Below are positions 1,101 through 55,540 of a DNA stretch of 64,000 nt, piece after piece (the stretch's first letter is position 1; each line of letters begins with the position of its first letter). A model generated the notes under the pieces. That model ran no database searches, was not told where the DNA came from, and saw nothing but the letters and a program-made list of their open reading frames with translations. A program made the translations under genes and the position numbers. The DNA is from Methanofastidiosum sp. (GTDB taxonomy: Archaea; Methanobacteriota_B; Thermococci; Methanofastidiosales; Methanofastidiosaceae), in NCBI GenBank assembly GCA_013178285.1, contig JABLXD010000001.1, forward strand, positions 186,001-250,000. The letters run 5' to 3'.

Positions 1101-2042
1101 TTATTTGTTTTTGTTTTTCTTAAGTATTTCTAGGATCTTCATTATAGGTATTGATCCTTTTGGGCCCCTATTGGAAGTGTAGTGAAAACCCATGTCAACT
1201 TTTCCAACATCCCATTTTTCATCTACCCTTGTTGTAAATCCGTTGTATAAGTCCAGGGTTATTGACTGGTCAGAGCCAGAATCAACACAGGGACTAGAGT
1301 ATCCAAGATAGTAATCTCCGAGCCTTCCTGTAATAAATTTAGGATCTGACGAGATTGAGGCTGTTTTAGTTGTATCGTCATAATCATCTCCAATATTGCC
1401 CCATGAGTTTGAATAAAGAATTTCTGATGGGTAGTTGTTATCAAAATAGAATCCGTCTAGGGTATTTCCAACTGAGATACAGTTTATCACCTTTGCTCCA
1501 CCATCTTCATTTATAAATCCAAAAAATCCATTATTTACGGAAGTACAGTTTATGTATGTACTGAAATCTTCATCACTGAATCCATTGCCACCGTTATTAT
1601 AAGAAAGACAGTTTTTTAGTGTACAGTTGCTGTTAGCTTCAAAACCGCTGTATTCATTAGCATAAGCAATGCAATTTTCAATTGTTCCATAATTATCAAT
1701 GACAAATCCATCGAGAGGTGCGTTTCTCAGAGTTATATTCTTGATAGTTACATATTCATGATCTGTATAGATGCCGTAACCTCCTGAAGAAGTTGCATCG
1801 ATTATTGTATTAAAAGGACTGTCGCCAATTATTGTAATATAGCTGGCAGGGATATTGATCTGGCTATTGACATAATAAGTTCCAGCATGGATATATATTG
1901 TATCTCCTGAGGCGGCCGCACCGACTATACTCACTATGTCATCATCTGGATAAATATGATGAGTTGCTGCAGAAACAGGAATCATAAAGACCAAAATAGA
2001 ACTTAAAAGAATCAATGCTAGTATAATTGAAATTTTCTTCAT
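1101..2042 (-). CDS. Secreted right-handed beta-helix repeat protein
   Basis: The 313-residue protein starts with a signal peptide (MKKISIILALILLSSI... ending near VSAA). It continues as a parallel beta-helix: short repeats such as YVTIKNITLRNA, TIENCIAYANEYSGF and TLKNCLSYNNGGNGF, each with the N-C/N-S turns of NosD/pectate-lyase-like proteins. The opening segment (DDIVSIVGAAASGDTIYIHAGTY) is the usual first coil. Such proteins bind or process polysaccharide or serve as surface adhesins; substrate cannot be read from sequence. No transmembrane anchor is seen, but the basic tail ends KKNKNK. It lies just downstream of another secreted protein on the same strand. Confidence 0.75.
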   Translation of the reverse strand: MKKISIILALILLSSILVFMIPVSAATHHIYPDDDIVSIVGAAASGDTIYIHAGTYYVNSQINIPASYITIIGDSPFNTIIDATSSGGYGIYTDHEYVTIKNITLRNAPLDGFVIDNYGTIENCIAYANEYSGFEANSNCTLKNCLSYNNGGNGFSDEDFSTYINCTSVNNGFFGFINEDGGAKVINCISVGNTLDGFYFDNNYPSEILYSNSWGNIGDDYDDTTKTASISSDPKFITGRLGDYYLGYSSPCVDSGSDQSITLDLYNGFTTRVDEKWDVGKVDMGFHYTSNRGPKGSIPIMKILEILKKNKNK

Positions 2043-2081: not shown

Positions 2082-3785
2082 TTAAATCTTCTTTCTCCTT
2101 CTGATAAATAAAAATCCTAGCGCACCACCTAAAACTGCAACTACTACCAGTATTGGAATCAATATCAGTGTAGGGCTAAAAGGTAAAGTCTGTTGTTGGA
2201 CTGGCTGAATCTTAGCGGAAGTTTCAGAAATCATGGCGTCAGTTGTTGCAACCATCGCTTTGTTTCCTACCTTCTCAAAGATGCGCCTTGCCTCATTGAA
2301 CTGCTCAAGTGCCTTATCGTAGTTACCATTGTTTAGCTCAGTGTTTGCATTGTTAAATAGCTCCATTGCCTGAGCATTTAATGCCTTGTATTCAACAGCC
2401 GTCATTATGTTTTTCTCACATCTCTTAACAGCTTCTGCATCCCCAAGCTTAGTGTATAGCTCCTTTGATTTTGCAAACTCCTTTATTGACTCATCAAACT
2501 GCGCCCTTAGAAGAAGTCTTTCTCCCTCAGCATAGTGCCTTCCTGCAAATATTGTGAGAAAATTATTTTTGTAAACAAAGACGTAGTTACTGCAAACTAT
2601 AACATCCTTGTACCCATCAGAATCTATATCAACTATAGATACAGTCTTTATAGGTCCATTGACATTTGTTTCAGAGAGCTTCTCACCATCGCTAGAGAAC
2701 ACGTAGAATGTCCCCTGGTCTATCTCCTGCTTTGATGATGACCACTTACCGGCGGCAACTAAGATTTCTGGCGAGCCATCGCCTGTGAAGTCATCTATTG
2801 TTACGTATCTAACATCTTTTCCAATAAATTGCGGGTCATTCCAAACTTTGTACCCCTTGCTATCAAATAGGTAAAGCCATCCGTCAACAGTACCAACTGC
2901 AATCTCCTTCTTTCCGTCCTTGTTGATATCGCCAACACCAAAAGAATAGATATAAGACTCAAGGATGTTTCGCCAGAGCTTCCCCTCTAGGCCAAAGACC
3001 TGAAGGTATTTGTAGGAGGCAGTTATGACTTCCATTTTCTGGTCATTATTAATATCACCAGAGTAGACCTGCTCAATTGGGTAGACATTTTCTACCTCCC
3101 ATAACTTCTTACCTGTTGGGTCGTAAAGGTAGATGTTTGGATCACGCTCTCCAGATGCTACAACATCAGGAAATATCCATGAGAGGTCAACTTTTACATT
3201 AAGCGGATATTCATCCCATGTTTCATATTCTTCTACAGCAAAGTCAGCTGTGTAAAGTTTCATGACATAAAATCTATAGAAGTCGTTTTCCTTCCTCCAC
3301 TGTGTACCGCTTATCGAATATACAGAGAATGTTGCGTCTTTGAAACCGACAACTATCTCTGGTACCCTATCTCCGTCAAGGTCTGATGCAACTAGAGAGT
3401 TAATCGGCTTTGTCAGAGGAAAGTAAAGATTCCATTTACTATTGCCATTGGAATCAAGAAGGTAGACAAATCCCTTGTCATTATAAAAAAGAACGTATCG
3501 ATCCGTACCCTTTCTTATGACTGATAGACTTCTTCCCGGTGAGTCAAAATCTTTAGACCAAAGTGTTATCCCGTCTAGGGTGTATGCCCTTATCTCGCCA
3601 GTATCTGTTGAAAGAACGACGTCATGCGTTCCATCCCCATCTATGTCGCCAAGAGCTGATGAAACTGTACCGTAGTCATGCCTGAAGTAGTACTTTATTG
3701 TAAATGGCTCTACCTCTGCGGCTACAGGAACAGTTAATAAAAATGATAAAGATACCAATATGCACAACAGTTGTTTCATATTCAT
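2082..3785 (-). CDS. Surface-anchored FG-GAP/VCBS beta-propeller protein
   Basis: The 567-residue protein has an N-terminal signal peptide, then repeated FG-GAP/VCBS blades with calcium-binding-like loops: DIDGDGTHDVV, DLDGDRVPEIV, DINNDQKMEVI, DINKDGKKEIA, DIDSDGYKDVI. After residue about 420 comes a helical, TPR-like segment (repeats around ERLLLRAQFDESIKEFAKSKE and NNGNYDKALEQFNEA). A final transmembrane helix (LILIPILVVVAVLGG) with an RRRKK stop-transfer tail anchors it facing outward. The propeller is integrin-alpha-like, suggesting an adhesion or scaffold role; the ligand is unknown. A TATA-like TTTATATAC lies about 30 bases upstream of the ATG. Confidence 0.78.
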   Translation of the reverse strand: MNMKQLLCILVSLSFLLTVPVAAEVEPFTIKYYFRHDYGTVSSALGDIDGDGTHDVVLSTDTGEIRAYTLDGITLWSKDFDSPGRSLSVIRKGTDRYVLFYNDKGFVYLLDSNGNSKWNLYFPLTKPINSLVASDLDGDRVPEIVVGFKDATFSVYSISGTQWRKENDFYRFYVMKLYTADFAVEEYETWDEYPLNVKVDLSWIFPDVVASGERDPNIYLYDPTGKKLWEVENVYPIEQVYSGDINNDQKMEVITASYKYLQVFGLEGKLWRNILESYIYSFGVGDINKDGKKEIAVGTVDGWLYLFDSKGYKVWNDPQFIGKDVRYVTIDDFTGDGSPEILVAAGKWSSSKQEIDQGTFYVFSSDGEKLSETNVNGPIKTVSIVDIDSDGYKDVIVCSNYVFVYKNNFLTIFAGRHYAEGERLLLRAQFDESIKEFAKSKELYTKLGDAEAVKRCEKNIMTAVEYKALNAQAMELFNNANTELNNGNYDKALEQFNEARRIFEKVGNKAMVATTDAMISETSAKIQPVQQQTLPFSPTLILIPILVVVAVLGGALGFLFIRRRKKI

Positions 3786-14342: not shown

Positions 14343-14678
14343 ATGAAGAAAATTATGACCTTGTTTATTGCTGTTGCATTGATCGCATCTATGGGTATCG
14401 GCGCAATAGCCGGTGCAAACAAAGATACCTTCGCAAATGCAGTTAATGACGAGCAGGCCCAACTTGCACTTGAAAAAGCAGCTGTTGAGTTTGCAAATGG
14501 CAACGATGTCGAAGGCTTGGCTGCTGAAGACGATGCTACAAACAACTTTGGAAAGACTGAACTTGGATTCCACAAGCTTGCCGGAGCAGTTATTTCTGCA
14601 AGCTGGTGCATTGATACACCATCGCATCCAACATACAGAATGCACAAGCCATTGTGTACTATATGTACGCCTAACTAA
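14343..14678 (+). CDS. Small secreted cysteine-containing protein, family copy 1
   Basis: 111 residues: signal peptide to about IGAIAGA; a conserved acidic/Ala-rich helical segment (EQAQLALEKAAVEFANGND); the invariant ATNNFGKTELGF; and a C-terminal region AGAVISASWC, then a short variable loop and YRMHKPLCTICTPN. Three cysteines remain in the mature part: one after SASW and a terminal CxxC after HKP. I do not recognise a named family. Copy 4 at 17142 is almost identical except in the last 15 residues. The cysteines could form a disulfide or, with the His, a metal site. The perfect ribosome binding site implies abundant expression. Confidence 0.85.
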   Translation: MKKIMTLFIAVALIASMGIGAIAGANKDTFANAVNDEQAQLALEKAAVEFANGNDVEGLAAEDDATNNFGKTELGFHKLAGAVISASWCIDTPSHPTYRMHKPLCTICTPN

Positions 14679-14730
14679 ATATATTATATATTTTAATTAA
14701 TATTTTTTCTATTTTTAAGGTAATATTTGA

Positions 14731-14874
14731 TTTAAATAAAACAATATGAAACATCTTTTGCCTTATTTTTAATTTCTGGGGTTTATTTAGACTTTAATTT
14801 TATCTGAAATTGAAGGTTTAGACAACAACTATATATAAGGAACAAATAAAAATGTATTAGCTTAACAAGGAGGT
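14731..14874 (+). promoter_or_regulatory. Promoter of peptide-family copy 2
   Basis: Upstream element AAATAAAACAATATGAAACA (14734-14753) followed by CCTTATTTTTAA, a GGTTTAGACAACAAC box abutting the TATA box CTATATATAA (14829-14838), and AAGGAGGT (14867-14874). Spacing from upstream element to TATA is about 80 bases, as in the other copies. Confidence 0.7.
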
Positions 14875-14880
14875 TACGCT

Positions 14881-15261
14881 ATGAAGAAGATTATGACCTT
14901 GTTTATTGCAGTTGCTTTGATCGCATCCTTTGGTATCAGCGCAATAGCTGGTGCTGGAGAAGATGAATTTGCAAATGCAGTAATTAACGAAGAAGCTCAA
15001 TTGGCATTAGAAAAGGCTGCGATTGAGTTTGCTAACGGTAACGATGTTGAAGGTGTCGCAGCTGAGGAAGATGCAACAAACAACTTTGGTAAGACTCAGC
15101 TTGGATTCTTGAGGATTTCCGGTGCTGTAATATCTGCAAGCTGGTGCATTAACACACCGGCACACGCTTACTACAGAATGCACAAACCATACTGCTCAAA
15201 CTGTGGTCCAAGTGCAGGATTTACCCACGTAGGCATTGGAATATGTGTTGATGCTACATAA
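14881..15261 (+). CDS. Small secreted cysteine-containing protein, family copy 2 (extended tail)
   Basis: 126 residues with the same plan as copy 1: signal peptide, Ala/Glu helical segment, ATNNFGKTQLGF, GAVISASWC, and YRMHKPYCSNC. It differs in a C-terminal extension (GPSAGFTHVGIGICVDAT) that adds a fourth mature cysteine. The upstream half is conserved at the protein level but has many synonymous changes relative to copy 1, so it is under selection and not a fresh duplicate. Function unknown. Confidence 0.85.
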   Translation: MKKIMTLFIAVALIASFGISAIAGAGEDEFANAVINEEAQLALEKAAIEFANGNDVEGVAAEEDATNNFGKTQLGFLRISGAVISASWCINTPAHAYYRMHKPYCSNCGPSAGFTHVGIGICVDAT

Positions 15262-15300
15262 TTTTACTTTATTTTTTTATTATTCTATTTTTCTAAGTCA

Positions 15301-15440
15301 AGTGAAAGATTGTGAAACGTCTCTGGCCTTATTTTTATAATTTGAGTTATCAATAGTTTTTAATTGATGAAGAAAAAAAAAGGTTTACACCACAACTATA
15401 AATACTAGCTATACGCATTAAATACGGTGAAAAAAAGGGG
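15301..15440 (+). promoter_or_regulatory. Promoter of peptide-family copy 3 (most divergent)
   Basis: Keeps the upstream element core (GATTGTGAAACGTCTCTGGC, then CTTATTTTTATAA, 15308-15340), the GGTTTACACCACAAC box and the TATA box CTATAAATA (15397-15405). It lacks the AAGGAGGT site; only a G-run near 15436-15442 precedes the ATG, so translation is likely weaker than for the other copies. Confidence 0.6.
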
Positions 15441-15452
15441 GCTTAGAGATAG

Positions 15453-15794
15453 ATGAAAAGAATTTTGAGTTTAGGGATTTCGCTCATAATGATCTTTTCC
15501 ATTGCAATCATTGCTATTGCTGGATCCAATGAGGATGCATTTGCAGAGGCTGTCCTTAGCGAAAAGGCTGAGCTTTCACTTGAAAAGGCAGCTTTAGAGT
15601 TTGCCCAAGGAAATGATGTTGAAGGCTTAGCTTTAGAGAATAATGCTACAAACAACTTTGGGAAGACTCAGCTTGGGTTCTTGAGGATTTCTGGAGCTGT
15701 TATCACAGCTAGTTGGTGCCCAGGATTATACACACCTTACAGACCACACAAGCCATACTGCAGTATCTGTTACTCAGTACAAGTACTAGAATAA
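15453..15794 (+). CDS. Small secreted cysteine-containing protein, family copy 3 (divergent)
   Basis: 113 residues: signal peptide MKRILSLGISLIMIFSIAII, then the conserved LEKAALEFAQGNDVEGLA and NNATNNFGKTQLGF, then GAVITASWC and a loop with PYRPHKPYCSIC. The tail (YSVQVLE) differs from all others. The strict retention of NATNNFGKT.LGF and of W-C plus CxxC while the loop and tail vary suggests a conserved processing or folding scaffold with a variable functional end. Function unknown. Confidence 0.83.
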   Translation: MKRILSLGISLIMIFSIAIIAIAGSNEDAFAEAVLSEKAELSLEKAALEFAQGNDVEGLALENNATNNFGKTQLGFLRISGAVITASWCPGLYTPYRPHKPYCSICYSVQVLE

Positions 15795-15909: not shown

Positions 15910-16953
15910 ATGAAGAAAATACTTACTTTTGTCCTTGTAATGGCAATTATGATTTCTATTTTACCTGGAATTTCTGCACCTATTCAGGTACAAATAATTC
16001 CAGAAGGAATACAGCCCGGAGCCTCCATAGTCAATGACTATTGTGTCCCGGATTATTATTCGATAGGAACATTTACATTGGCCCAACGTCAAATTGTTTC
16101 CGTTAATATACCCCCTACCGCATGCCCTCCTGTCAAACAAGGGCCTATTCTAGGGATGGCAACAATTGCAGCCCCAATAGGTCAACTCAACGATATAGGT
16201 CTCGAGGCCGATTTTTCAGTTATAGACATCCCACAATATCAATATACTTGCTATTACAAGAGCCCTTGCCCTTGCATAATCCCTGAAGGTCCGAATGGAA
16301 TAACGAATGGTGCTGGCCAAGTTGGGATATGCCCTCCCAGGGGACTCCAAATATGTGTGACTAGCCCCACCACCCCATGTTTATCTATCCGTATTTATGG
16401 GGATCAAGGCCCTATATCTGTTACTTTGCCGAATCAAGTTGGCCCTAATGAGTGGTGCACTTCCATACCTATAGCTCCAGATATTGTAAGAATTGAAATA
16501 CAAAATTGTGGGGATCCTCTAGAAGGGGAAGTAGTGATATGGGAATGCTGCTGTTACGACTGCTATAAACAAAAAGCACTTCCGACCACGCTCTACCCAA
16601 AGATAGACATAGAGACATTCTCAGTTGCAGGTGGTCCAACAGTTATCCAGAACGGGAAGGTTATCTCAAAATTCCAGATGACACCAGGAAGCCAACAGGT
16701 ATTACTACAAGTAGAAAACAGAGGATTCTTTACCCAAAACGATACAAGATTAAAGTTTGAAGGACTCCCAGAAGGGATAACAGTTGAGATAGCTCCAGAA
16801 ACGCAAAAGATAAACGCCCACAATATCGGTACCTATTCAGCCAATTTTACTGTAGGGCCAAACGTCCCTTCAGGTACATACCAAGTAACAATGGTGGCGT
16901 ACTCGCCCAACGGCATGTTTGACAAGATAACATTTGAGTTCGTTGTGCAATAA
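15910..16953 (+). CDS. Secreted beta-sandwich protein with NEW3-like C-terminal domain, copy 1
   Basis: 347 residues with a signal peptide (to about GISAP) and a Cys/Pro-rich N-terminal half, including clusters YKSPCPCIIP and WECCCYDCYKQ. The C-terminal 120 residues (from LYPKIDIETFSVAGG) form an alpha-galactosidase NEW3/COG1470-like Ig domain ending FEFVVQ. That domain is strongly paralogous to the C-terminus of the protein at 29742-30680 (shared QVENRGFFTQN, AHN.GTYSA.FTV, NVPSGTY). It sits inside the four-copy peptide cluster and may be a surface partner of it; that link is positional only. The start follows GGTG by five bases. Confidence 0.7.
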   Translation: MKKILTFVLVMAIMISILPGISAPIQVQIIPEGIQPGASIVNDYCVPDYYSIGTFTLAQRQIVSVNIPPTACPPVKQGPILGMATIAAPIGQLNDIGLEADFSVIDIPQYQYTCYYKSPCPCIIPEGPNGITNGAGQVGICPPRGLQICVTSPTTPCLSIRIYGDQGPISVTLPNQVGPNEWCTSIPIAPDIVRIEIQNCGDPLEGEVVIWECCCYDCYKQKALPTTLYPKIDIETFSVAGGPTVIQNGKVISKFQMTPGSQQVLLQVENRGFFTQNDTRLKFEGLPEGITVEIAPETQKINAHNIGTYSANFTVGPNVPSGTYQVTMVAYSPNGMFDKITFEFVVQ

Positions 16954-24614: not shown

Positions 24615-25055
24615 TTATGCTGATTCATTCCCAAATCCAAGTATCTTCATGAATTTAAACATTGGAAGGGAGTTTGAAGTTATTGTCACTGGATTTGAAA
24701 CTATATTTCCATTTATTTTTGCTGAAGTTGGAGGGCCAAAATCAAATTTAATAGTTCCTGGAGCTGTTGCTCTGTAAATCCATGTGAAAGTTTGCTCAAC
24801 TGGGAAAAGACCTTTTGAAAATGAGGTGGCAGGTCTTGATACTAAAACGGCATCGCCTTTGGGCTTATCTCCGTCTGCTATTATAGCCGGGTCTAGGCTT
24901 GAAGGATAGTTAGTTGTAACTGTTATCAATTCTCCAACTTTTACTGTTTCAGGAGCTGCAACAGCTGAAAACCTTATATCTGCCATCGTAGAAGCAACAC
25001 CAAATACACTTACTACGAATAGTAAGGATACCAATATAACAAATAATTTCTTCAT
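24615..25055 (-). CDS. Secreted chagasin-like/Ig-fold protein with conserved C-terminal tail, copy 1
   Basis: 146 residues from the ATG at 25055, chosen because GGTGAT lies five bases upstream and the remainder begins MKKLFVILVSLLFVVSVFG, a signal peptide. The middle is a beta-sandwich (ETVKVGELITVTTNYPSS, then FTWIYRATAPGTIKFDFG) resembling chagasin/I42 protease inhibitors. It ends LPMFKFMKILGFGNESA, a tail shared with two other proteins in this window (25503 and 55001). Inhibitor function is inferred only from fold resemblance. Confidence 0.65.
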   Translation of the reverse strand: MKKLFVILVSLLFVVSVFGVASTMADIRFSAVAAPETVKVGELITVTTNYPSSLDPAIIADGDKPKGDAVLVSRPATSFSKGLFPVEQTFTWIYRATAPGTIKFDFGPPTSAKINGNIVSNPVTITSNSLPMFKFMKILGFGNESA

Positions 25056-25106
25056 AATTATCACCATTGTATTTAATTAAAATAAATTCTCTAATATTTA
25101 AAGATA

Positions 25107-25160
25107 TGCTAAAGTTATAGAGAAATTAATAACCGTCTTATCAGGCCCTCTTAATGAGAA
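25107..25160 (-). pseudogene. Decayed 5' end of a third EamA transporter copy
   Basis: The minus strand reads ATTAAGAGGGCCTGATAAGA then CGGTTATTAATTTCTCT. This aligns with the leader and first codons of the transporter at 24513 (ATTAAGAAGACCTGATAAGA then TGGCTATTGATTTTTCT) at about 30 of 38 positions. The start codon is ACG instead of ATG, and similarity fades after roughly ten codons. It is a relic of a duplication that was mostly deleted, perhaps when the chagasin-like gene was inserted between. Confidence 0.5.
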
Positions 25161-25258
25161 GGCAAGAATTGTTATAACGTTTACAAGAATAAGAGTATAG
25201 TAAATCGTGCAGATTAATGTTAAATATTATAATTCCCAGATATTACTGGTGGGAAAAA

Positions 25259-25420
25259 ATGGCTCGAAAATATGATTCAAACAAGATTGTAGATTATCTG
25301 GTAGTTGCTATAGCGACATTTTTAGGATATACTATAGGTGGGTATTTCAGGAGCTCTTTGATAGGGGCTGTCGTTGGGAGTGTAGTTGGTCTTTATATTG
25401 CATCCAAATATATTCGATGA
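25259..25420 (+). CDS. Small membrane protein with glycine-zipper helices
   Basis: 53 residues from the ATG at 25259, which follows GGTGGG by five bases (an earlier ATG at 25217 has no such site). Sequence MARKYDSNKIVDYLVVAIAT... contains a helix followed by IGGYFRSSLIGAVVGSVVG, a glycine-zipper-like second helix. No family recognised; small size and opposite orientation to neighbours leave some doubt. Confidence 0.5.
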   Translation: MARKYDSNKIVDYLVVAIATFLGYTIGGYFRSSLIGAVVGSVVGLYIASKYIR

Positions 25421-25502
25421 ACTTGAATTAGATACCCTAAACTAGTTAAAATTAAAGATTTTACTAAAAATAATTGAAAAAGTAGTTAATAAAAAATTAA
25501 AT

Positions 25503-25916
25503 TTATTTATTCTTACCAAATCCAAGTATCTTCATGAAGGAGAACATTGGGTATTCCCTTGGGGTTACAGTTACGCCATAGTAGACTCTTTCATCTTCAA
25601 AACACCCAACATAAAACAATTTCTCGTAAGTACCTACTTTTAATGCTTTGTATGTAAAAAGATATCCACCAGGTATAATATCATACCCTTCGCATCCTGG
25701 TTGCGTACAAAATTGTTCAAGGGCCCCCTTTACTCCTCCATTATTTCCCCAACAACAACCATTTTGCATCAACTTGACTTGGAATGTATCCCCAACTTGG
25801 ACAGACTCTGGGCCAATAATTTCATATTTACATGGGTCCCCTGCCATTGCTGAAGCTACTCCAAAAACACTTACTACGAATAGTAAGCTTATTATTATAG
25901 CAAATATTTTCTTCAT
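25503..25916 (-). CDS. Secreted chagasin-like protein with conserved C-terminal tail, copy 2
   Basis: 137 residues from the ATG at 25916, six bases after GGTGA (the same leader as copy 1). After the signal peptide comes a cysteine-rich beta-sandwich (VQVGDTFQVKLMQNGCCWG, then TYKALKVGTYEKLFYVGCF). It matches the chagasin/I42 pattern of GDxFxVxLxxN and A-x-x-x-G-x-Y better than the other copies. It ends YPMFSFMKILGFGKNK. Likely a cell-surface or secreted inhibitor of cysteine peptidases, by analogy only. Confidence 0.65.
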   Translation of the reverse strand: MKKIFAIIISLLFVVSVFGVASAMAGDPCKYEIIGPESVQVGDTFQVKLMQNGCCWGNNGGVKGALEQFCTQPGCEGYDIIPGGYLFTYKALKVGTYEKLFYVGCFEDERVYYGVTVTPREYPMFSFMKILGFGKNK

Positions 25917-26041
25917 AGTTATCACCATTGTATTTACTAGACAGAGTTCCAGAGATATATAAACATTTGCCTAACTCCATCTTCGGCATTAGTCCTAAAA
26001 TAAGAGTTAAAATATTAAACTAGAAAAATAAATGTAGCTAA

Positions 26042-29741: not shown

Positions 29742-30680
29742 TTATGGAACTACAAACTTAAACTGTATTACGTCGAACGTTCCAGTTGAAGAGTATGCTA
29801 CTATTGTGACGTCATAAGTTCCTGATGGCACATTGGGGTCTACGGTGAATATGGCAGAATATGTTCCAAGATTGTGTGCTTTGATCTTCTGGGCTTCTGG
29901 AGTAATATTTACTGTTACACCGTTGGGGAGTCCCATGAACTTTATCATGGCTTCATTTTGTGTGAAGAATCCTCTGTTTTCAACCTGGATGAATGTCTGC
30001 TGTGTTCCCGGAGAGATTTCAAATGACGATAAAATCTTTCCATCCCTTATTATAGTTGATCCGCCTGTTACTGTGAATTGTTCAATGTCAACTTTTGGGT
30101 ATAGTGGAGGCAGACTGCATGGACACTCTTCGTATATCTTGAAGTTGTATTGTAAGGAAGGTTCTCCAACGGCATCATCATCTTCCCAATATATTTTAAC
30201 GCCTATGGGGTATCCATAGTGGGGATTCCAATAGAAAGAAGCACATTCAGTTCCTTTAACTTCTCCTACATCAACAGGAAATTCAAATAGCTGCTCAACT
30301 TCTGGGTAAAGTAATCCTAAACGCACATCGGCATGGTCACCTGGGTTTCCAACTGATGTTCCGCACGCCTCTACTCTGTAATTGCACCCTTGCTTTATCG
30401 GAATCTCTCCCCACATATGAACTGCAGGATTATTATTTACGACTACAGAAACGGCATGCGTAAACTGCTGTGTACTTGAATCGGTTTCTTGCAGAGGTAT
30501 AACGCCACTACCTTCATACAAAAGTCTACTATTGGTACAGCCAGAAGTTCCACCCGGTGGTTGATATGTCAATATCTGTTCAAATGAAAGTTGTTGAACT
30601 GGAAATTGCGAGCTCACAGCAAAAACAAAAATAGAGCCTAGCATAACAAACATTAACACTATTGCTATCGTTTTTTTCAT
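29742..30680 (-). CDS. Secreted beta-sandwich protein with NEW3-like C-terminal domain, copy 2
   Basis: 312 residues with a signal peptide (MKKTIAIVLMFVMLGSIFV). The N-terminal half is a beta-rich domain (VPEHADVRLGLLYPEVEQLF region), and the C-terminal 120 residues are the NEW3-like Ig domain shared with 15910-16953: LYPKVDIEQFTVTGG, QVENRGFFTQN, AHNLGTYSAIFTV and FKFVVP. The N-terminal half is different from that of copy 1. Likely exposed on the surface. Ligand unknown. Confidence 0.7.
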   Translation of the reverse strand: MKKTIAIVLMFVMLGSIFVFAVSSQFPVQQLSFEQILTYQPPGGTSGCTNSRLLYEGSGVIPLQETDSSTQQFTHAVSVVVNNNPAVHMWGEIPIKQGCNYRVEACGTSVGNPGDHADVRLGLLYPEVEQLFEFPVDVGEVKGTECASFYWNPHYGYPIGVKIYWEDDDAVGEPSLQYNFKIYEECPCSLPPLYPKVDIEQFTVTGGSTIIRDGKILSSFEISPGTQQTFIQVENRGFFTQNEAMIKFMGLPNGVTVNITPEAQKIKAHNLGTYSAIFTVDPNVPSGTYDVTIVAYSSTGTFDVIQFKFVVP

Positions 30681-54880: not shown

Positions 54881-54994
54881 CTAGAAAAGGGAAAAATTTC
54901 CTTTATTACTTTCCCTATTTTTTTCCCTATTTTCCCTATTTTTTGCCATATCTTTATATATAGGGAAAATCTTCATATTATACACCTATAGGTG
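54881..54994 (+). promoter_or_regulatory. Repeat-rich promoter region of chagasin-like copy 3
   Basis: Near-tandem copies of TTTCCCTATTTT (within about 54910-54945) lie between the inversely oriented GGGAAAAATTTCC (54890-54901) and TAGGGAAAA (54961-54969). The TATA-like CTTTATATA is at 54951-54960, and CACCTATAGGTG (54983-54994), a perfect 12-base palindrome, contains the AGGTG ribosome binding site. Confidence 0.5.
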
Positions 54995-55000
54995 ATAATT

Positions 55001-55540
55001 ATGAAGAAAATATTAGCTATGACGATATCCTTACTATTTGTAGTAAGCGTTTTTGGTATTGCCTCAACGATGGCTGAATGTCAATTCGACGAAGGATACT
55101 ATAAAATCAGTAACAATACGCCCAAAGTTGGAGAAACATTTTCAATTACTCTAGAAAAAGCCGCTATGGGTAGTGTTAAAATCGAAGGTAAAACAGTCGA
55201 TCAAATAACTTTAGAAATTGTTGCAAATAAGAAACTCCCTTACCAAATAGGTACTGTTGAGTTAATAAATGTAGAATATTATAAAGCAGATGGCACATTA
55301 ATTTACAGCGGACTCGTATTACCAGATGCTCTGCCATCTCCAGATTTTCCACATTGGGGTGAACTTGCTCCAAAAAGTTGGGACGATGTTGCATCAATAA
55401 GATGGATATTCAGAGCAGTGAAGCCAGGCAAATTGACTTTAAATGGAGCATGTGGTGAAATAGAAACAGTCACAATCCTTTCCAAAGATCTGCCATTCAA
55501 ATTCTTTGCAAAACTATTTGGCTTTGGACAGAAAAAATAA
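55001..55540 (+). CDS. Secreted chagasin-like/Ig-fold protein with conserved C-terminal tail, copy 3
   Basis: 179 residues from the ATG at 55001, six bases after AGGTGA. Signal peptide MKKILAMTISLLFVVSVFGI is nearly the same as in the two copies near 25 kb. The middle domain (NNTPKVGETFSITLEKAAMG, IRWIFRAVKPGKLTLNGACG) is chagasin-like. It ends LPFKFFAKLFGFGQKK, a looser version of the shared FMKILGFG tail. Located next to tRNA-Leu, far from its paralogs. Confidence 0.65.
   Translation: MKKILAMTISLLFVVSVFGIASTMAECQFDEGYYKISNNTPKVGETFSITLEKAAMGSVKIEGKTVDQITLEIVANKKLPYQIGTVELINVEYYKADGTLIYSGLVLPDALPSPDFPHWGELAPKSWDDVASIRWIFRAVKPGKLTLNGACGEIETVTILSKDLPFKFFAKLFGFGQKK

Follow-up and report, generated by a model that had tools for sequence, protein, structure and literature searches.

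The window, by which we mean the whole stretch of 64,000 nucleotides that was analysed (C1:186001-250000 of the genome here called G000), raises the question of why several predicted secreted proteins end in nearly the same short peptide. The initial annotation had pointed to three open reading frames with such tails, and all three were recovered with exact coordinates. On the minus strand, 24615-25067 encodes a predicted secreted Ig-like beta-sandwich protein of 150 amino acids, consisting of a Sec-type signal peptide, the body and a tag, and ending in ...LPMFKFMKILGFGNESA (tag PMFKFMKILGFGNESA, 16 codons, 24618..24665). On the same strand, a predicted secreted protein of 141 amino acids (25503-25928) ends in ...YPMFSFMKILGFGKNK, with the C-terminal tag PMFSFMKILGFGKNK (15 codons, 25506..25550). 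The third, a predicted secreted protein of 182 amino acids on the plus strand (54992-55540), ends in ...LPFKFFAKLFGFGQKK with the variant C-terminal tag PFKFFAKLFGFGQKK (15 codons, 55493..55537). The bodies of these three belong to one BLAST group. A fourth tailed protein had been overlooked: a predicted right-handed beta-helix-like secreted protein of 313 amino acids (1101-2042, minus strand), which ends in ...IPIMKILEILKKNKNK and carries its tag, PIMKILEILKKNKNK, in the KxN form. The tail has a proline about 15 residues before the C-terminus, followed by [MI]xx[FI][ML]KIL, GxG or KxN, and charged residues. All four proteins start with a Sec-type signal peptide, as judged by eye. The tail expression matches 4 of the 69 non-overlapping window reading frames of at least 90 amino acids, and all four are among the 14 that begin with a hydrophobic stretch and have no more than one transmembrane stretch after it.

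Other exported proteins of the window end differently. A gene adjoining the tailed beta-helix gene encodes an FG-GAP repeat protein (2082-3785, minus strand) with a C-terminal transmembrane helix and an RRRKK end, which is a conventional anchor within the same genome as the tag. Three consecutive small secreted paralogues of 111, 126 and 113 amino acids (14343-15794, plus strand) have similar signal peptides and no tag. Two further secreted proteins (15910-16953, plus strand, and 29742-30680, minus strand) have in common a C-terminal stretch resembling GxFDxIxFxFVV, which differs from the tag and recurs at other loci of the genus.

The first three bodies had been labelled chagasin-like, a label that found no support. 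Pfam gave no inhibitor I42 (chagasin) model at E<=1 for the three proteins; the only matches were BatD, with 18.1 bits and under its cut-off of 24.1, and DUF6252, with 12.7 bits and likewise below cut-off. The AlphaFold2 model of the 24615 protein, made from an alignment of 11 rows (mean pLDDT 75.7), is a generic Ig-like beta-sandwich plus a separate helix at residues 135-142. This helix is formed by the tag and lies outside the sandwich, with local pLDDT blocks of 66 and 59 in the one protein modelled. VIA-align likened the sandwich to Ig-like domains with best Z scores of 7.6 and 7.4, the latter for intimin D00-D0. Foldseek gave no match to the sandwich under E 0.001 and VIA-align none with Z >=8, and since all Z scores are under 8 no family is claimed for it. 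Chagasin was not among the fold matches, an absence that excludes nothing.

The genome-wide search for the tail that the initial annotation had proposed revealed many signal-peptide proteins bearing it. A degenerate DNA pattern (P-h-x-x-h-h-charged-I-h) gave 27 matches in G000 compared with 8 for the reversed pattern, and the tail matches therefore exceed chance. Twenty of the 27 are located in reading frames with a signal peptide, by eye, and a proline 14, 15 or 16 residues before the stop; the signal peptide of one of them, L046, starts at an internal start codon, also by eye. The remaining seven comprise one match in a 30-residue reading frame and six without an in-frame reading frame, one of these six being the remnant of a broken propeller gene. 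In this TIGR04275-type remnant (L112, about 1820-1861; C1:78319-78360 of G000), the frame break lies just before the tag and the tag frame is only 25 codons long. At E<=0.01, a profile built from 49 tails matched G000 at 25 places, the L112 remnant included.

From ten genomes of the genus we gathered 67 tailed proteins, which are 77 pattern matches minus ten judged by eye to be noise; gene boundaries are mechanical reading-frame calls, and several of the genomes are incomplete drafts. A strong N-terminal hydrophobic stretch was found in 59 of the 67. Two of the other eight run off their DNA stretch, and most of the rest have a broken or in-frame upstream sequence resembling a signal peptide. 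Three tailed genes, L124 (TGA), L136 (TAA) and L128 (codon 3), are interrupted by an in-frame stop codon that lies within the signal peptide or immediately ahead of it, and are therefore broken copies, errors, or read through.

The tail is 14-16 residues long, with the consensus K-S-L-P-[MI]-x-[KQ]-[FI]-[ML]-K-I-L-[GK]-x-[GN]-[KQ] and a charged end. In 44 of the 67 proteins the proline is 15 residues away from the C-terminus, in 14 proteins the distance is 16 residues and in five it is 14, while distances of 13, 17, 19 and 26 were found once each. Isoleucine at +7 (58/67) and leucine at +8 (56/67) are well kept, where conservation of the proline and the hydrophobic positions is partly by construction because the collecting pattern fixes them. 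Lysine at +6 (54/67) and glycine or asparagine at +11 (64/67; 33 and 31, respectively) were left free by the pattern, yet are kept. At 100 degrees the hydrophobic moment averages 0.47; it is highest near 110 degrees, and the mean excess over composition shuffles is only 1.25 SD. Each tail has about 6-8 hydrophobic positions, interrupted by lysine, and is not long enough to span a membrane. The spacing I..IL.IL with its conserved N or G, and the many copies per genome that could assemble, would suit an oligomerisation helix, by which tags of different proteins pair to give mixed surface complexes. However, a stable coiled coil needs more than the roughly ten residues available here, and we regard this reading as improbable.

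A third form of the tail, PMDQI[ST]xIL followed by some 15-25 more residues, was found in L114 (1807-2895), L119 (2950-3480) and L173 (2668-3822), and two of these three proteins end near a stretch resembling CxxxPxAEGC. As the three run about 15-25 residues beyond the motif, an exact C-terminal position is not always needed.

A tail limited to one protein family would be ordinary conservation, and this was the outcome that the initial annotation had named as fatal to its idea. After removal of the first 35 and the last 24 residues, the 67 bodies fell into 13 groups by BLAST at E 1e-3, with 28, 9, 6, 5, 4, 4, 3, 2, 2, 1, 1, 1 and 1 members. They include the Ig-like sandwich, the beta-helix, three propeller types and others; Pfam and NCBIfam scans of representatives gave Beta_helix/pectin-lyase-like, SBBP/delta-60 repeat, TIGR04275 propeller and PQQ propeller models, several representatives being without a match. 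Tail subclass and body are not linked, as there are 25 G-type and three N-type tails in the group of 28 members, three and one in the TIGR04275 group, and two and four in the PQQ group. Because the bodies form 13 groups with differing domains, the tail is not the normal conservation of one family, and the original description of a conserved amphipathic tail behind a variable domain stands.

The tail is also better conserved than the proteins that carry it. In four pairs of the first three window proteins and their relatives in the genus, the last 20 residues are 90, 90, 90 and 70% identical, compared with 75, 76, 60 and 62% for the bodies; for the window beta-helix and a paralogue the values are 95 and 60%. 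Codons were compared over 12 tail positions in the 59 of 67 members that belong to the seven largest body groups, the other eight being left out. Pairs from different groups gave a pS of 0.74 and a pN of 0.41 (1,257 pairs), and those that also have the same tail subclass a pS of 0.77 and a pN of 0.27 (479 pairs). Since synonymous sites of the tail are near saturation while the residues are kept, selection acts on the peptide, and the tail is under purifying selection at the protein level. Saturation likewise mostly rules out recent copying of a DNA cassette. The proline codon is CCA in 54 of the 67 tails, and the codons for the proline and for glycine at +9 are shared above the level of the bodies, so some copying or shared descent of tail DNA is possible. 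That the tail as a whole reflects a single family of proteins with recent duplications, or a cassette copied between genes, could draw on this codon sharing and on the single body group holding 28 of the 67 members. It is already largely refuted by the 13 body groups and the synonymous saturation, and we give it hardly any credence.

The distribution of the tail follows the genus. A profile of 22 tails matched 10/10 genomes of the genus at E<=0.05, and when 61 genomes were scanned with it, none of the 51 from other genera did better than E 0.034. Among 115 genomes of the phylum, the 49-tail profile at E<=0.01 matched ten, all in the genus, and 0/105 outside; both profiles (A1 with 22 tails and A5 with 49) derive from tails found in this genus, and matches inside it are therefore partly the training set. 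A scan of a collection of 84,980 species with an exact DNA pattern, which covers the MKIL-G form, gave 12 stretches, all assignable to relatives of Methanofastidiosum: ten in Methanofastidiosum or Methanofastidiosia and two in Euryarchaeota archaeon Bin_39. One Bin_39 stretch (L139) encodes the same protein as a member of the genus, G005 (L083), and the second is taken to come from the same genome as L139. By these comparisons the tail is confined to the genus Methanofastidiosum. A virus origin was considered and rejected: among viral contigs the GxG-form pattern gave 0 stretches and the KxN-form pattern seven, of which three fall within 59-residue reading frames, about 50 residues before their end, and four in no in-frame reading frame.

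The tail could be a signal of the sortase or archaeosortase type, where it would be cleaved off and the protein joined to a lipid or other molecule. An enzyme of the right family is present: a small exosortase/archaeosortase-family protein, without any link to the tails, occurs in 9/10 genomes of the genus, and the two such proteins tested both pass the TIGR04178 cut-off. In G000 it is a protein of 165 residues (L165, 5561-6058, plus strand) with the cysteine, arginine and histidine typical of the family, and counterparts are found in G001-G005 and G007-G009. Its gene is located beside a MinD-like and a glycosyltransferase-like gene (names given by eye). A gene close by codes for a large exported protein, whose C-terminus is not tripartite in either G000 or G001. 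The enzyme family also occurs in G012 and G016, both of which are without the tag. The 14-16 residues of the tail leave no transmembrane helix after the motif, and there is no basic cytoplasmic cluster at the extreme C-terminus, where the net charge of the last seven residues ranges from -4 to +4 (negative in 19/67, neutral in 13/67). No CTERM model was found in NCBIfam at E<=1 for ten tailed proteins, nor in Pfam for 14. The known enzymes of this kind use a substrate signal made up of a motif, a transmembrane helix and a basic tail (PMC11980579). As the tail has neither such a helix nor a basic end, it was rejected as an archaeosortase substrate, and covalent sorting is very unlikely. The tag seems to behave like a C-terminal sorting or docking tag that falls outside the tripartite class.

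Sister families of the same order (f2, f3 and f4) have homologous bodies with differing C-terminal modules. A TIGR04275 propeller homologue of f3 (L177) has a transmembrane helix at the C-terminus. The TIGR04275 propeller L190 of f2 and the beta-helix proteins L205, L207, L208, L211, L213 and L216 of f2 and f4 instead have a common helical end domain of about 75 residues (alignment A4), across which none of five proteins scanned had a Pfam match at E<=0.01. This domain is present in 2-12 copies per genome in 9/9 f2/f4 genomes and occurs in 0/2 f3 genomes and 0/5 genomes of family f5 of the same class, and 6/10 genomes of the tag-bearing genus have one or two weak matches. It is like the tag in where it sits on beta-helix and TIGR04275 propeller bodies, and unlike it in being longer, showing no evident sequence likeness and having a largely complementary taxonomic range. 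The propellers of f4, of about 714 amino acids and by eye without a signal peptide, have no end module. For the Ig-like body, a profile matched only two sister genomes outside the genus (G011 and G013) at E<=0.01, both weakly, and the swap of end modules is therefore not visible for that body.

The initial annotation had offered a membrane anchor, a sorting tag or a docking peptide as possible roles. No single one of these is shown by the sequence, and the fact that sister families have a transmembrane anchor or helical domain in its stead favours surface retention in general. Taken together, the comparisons show a common, selected C-terminal peptide on unrelated proteins with Sec-type signal peptides, at the place where sister families put an anchor or helical module. 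That it is a genus-specific C-terminal surface-retention tag is the reading we prefer, at about even odds, and the route by which it would hold proteins at the surface has none of the features typical of known archaeal sorting tags.

An alternative in which the tag acts in transit, read by a chaperone or secretion component and having no part in the final location, would account for the co-occurrence of tag and signal peptide in nearly all members and for its presence whatever the body. Yet the tag is absent from 10 of the 14 window proteins with a hydrophobic N-terminus, and homologues with signal peptides in the sister families manage without it, which makes such an export or folding signal distinctly unlikely.

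Retention could also be direct, the amphipathic helix lying in the archaeal membrane, on its outer face, as a monotopic anchor without a protein receptor. The helical hydrophobic moment is consistent with this, as are the transmembrane helix of the f3 propeller homologue and the unrelated amphipathic ends of two other propellers, L186 of G003 (...GGIGEAISRFIQQIMSIFGR) and L175 of G018 (...VLLRSIMMRVESLLLSIL); L186 is a propeller of G003, a genome of the tag-bearing genus, and its amphipathic end is other than the tag. Against it, the residue identities at +6, +7 and +8 are stricter than lipid binding needs, the stretch is short with a lysine mid-way, and the f2/f4 domain that takes its place is long, helical and soluble-looking. 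We consider bare membrane binding rather unlikely, and because of these strict identities and an f2/f4 module that does not look membrane-inserting, we have a weak preference for docking on a protein.

In the docking reading, the tag would fold after export as a short amphipathic helix behind a proline-containing linker. It would remain unprocessed, since it offers no transmembrane helix for a sortase-type reaction, and would bind a common envelope partner non-covalently, this partner being more probably a protein, such as a receptor or scaffold, than bare lipid. Many different ectodomains may thereby be displayed together on the cell surface. Neither a receptor nor a linked partner gene came to light; the neighbours of the tail clusters are housekeeping genes that differ between loci, and the neighbourhoods of six tail-cluster stretches have no secretion gene in common. 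We tentatively propose, as a possibility still somewhat on the doubtful side, that an unprocessed helical tag of 15 residues plugs dozens of exported proteins with unrelated folds into one envelope receptor, and that relatives have given up this plug, on proteins of the same fold families, in favour of either a helical domain of 75 residues or a transmembrane anchor.

A full-text literature search found no paper on this tail or such a tag, which is no proof of absence as most subscription journals lie outside its coverage. Known archaeal sorting tags need a transmembrane segment and an archaeosortase, and this tag has no such segment. It marks about 25 places in one genome and occurs in all species sampled from this genus of uncultured methanogens. 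A surface proteome thereby becomes predictable from the sequence alone, and the tag provides a defined peptide for receptor finding. It may also offer a natural comparison of three interchangeable ways of holding proteins of the same fold family at the cell surface.

Among known systems, the PGF-CTERM/archaeosortase signals, as well as PEP-CTERM, MYXO-CTERM, GlyGly-CTERM and LPXTG, resemble the tag in being a short C-terminal signature shared by unrelated exported proteins of one genome that have an N-terminal signal peptide. The tag differs in that both the transmembrane helix and the basic cytoplasmic tail are missing, in its total length of about 15 residues and in being helix-forming. Type IX secretion C-terminal domains and dockerins are also common C-terminal modules on unrelated secreted bodies, but they are folded domains several times longer, and neither was matched in the Pfam and NCBIfam scans of tailed proteins. 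The encapsulation peptides of bacterial microcompartments act in the cytoplasm, whereas the proteins with the tag are exported ones, and neither a shell nor a scaffold was identified for them. In form they are similar, being short helical terminal peptides joined by a linker to unrelated proteins and plugging into a shared assembly, and the tag likewise appears as a short amphipathic helix that follows a linker and is borne by unrelated proteins, the helix being predicted with moderate confidence in the one protein modelled.
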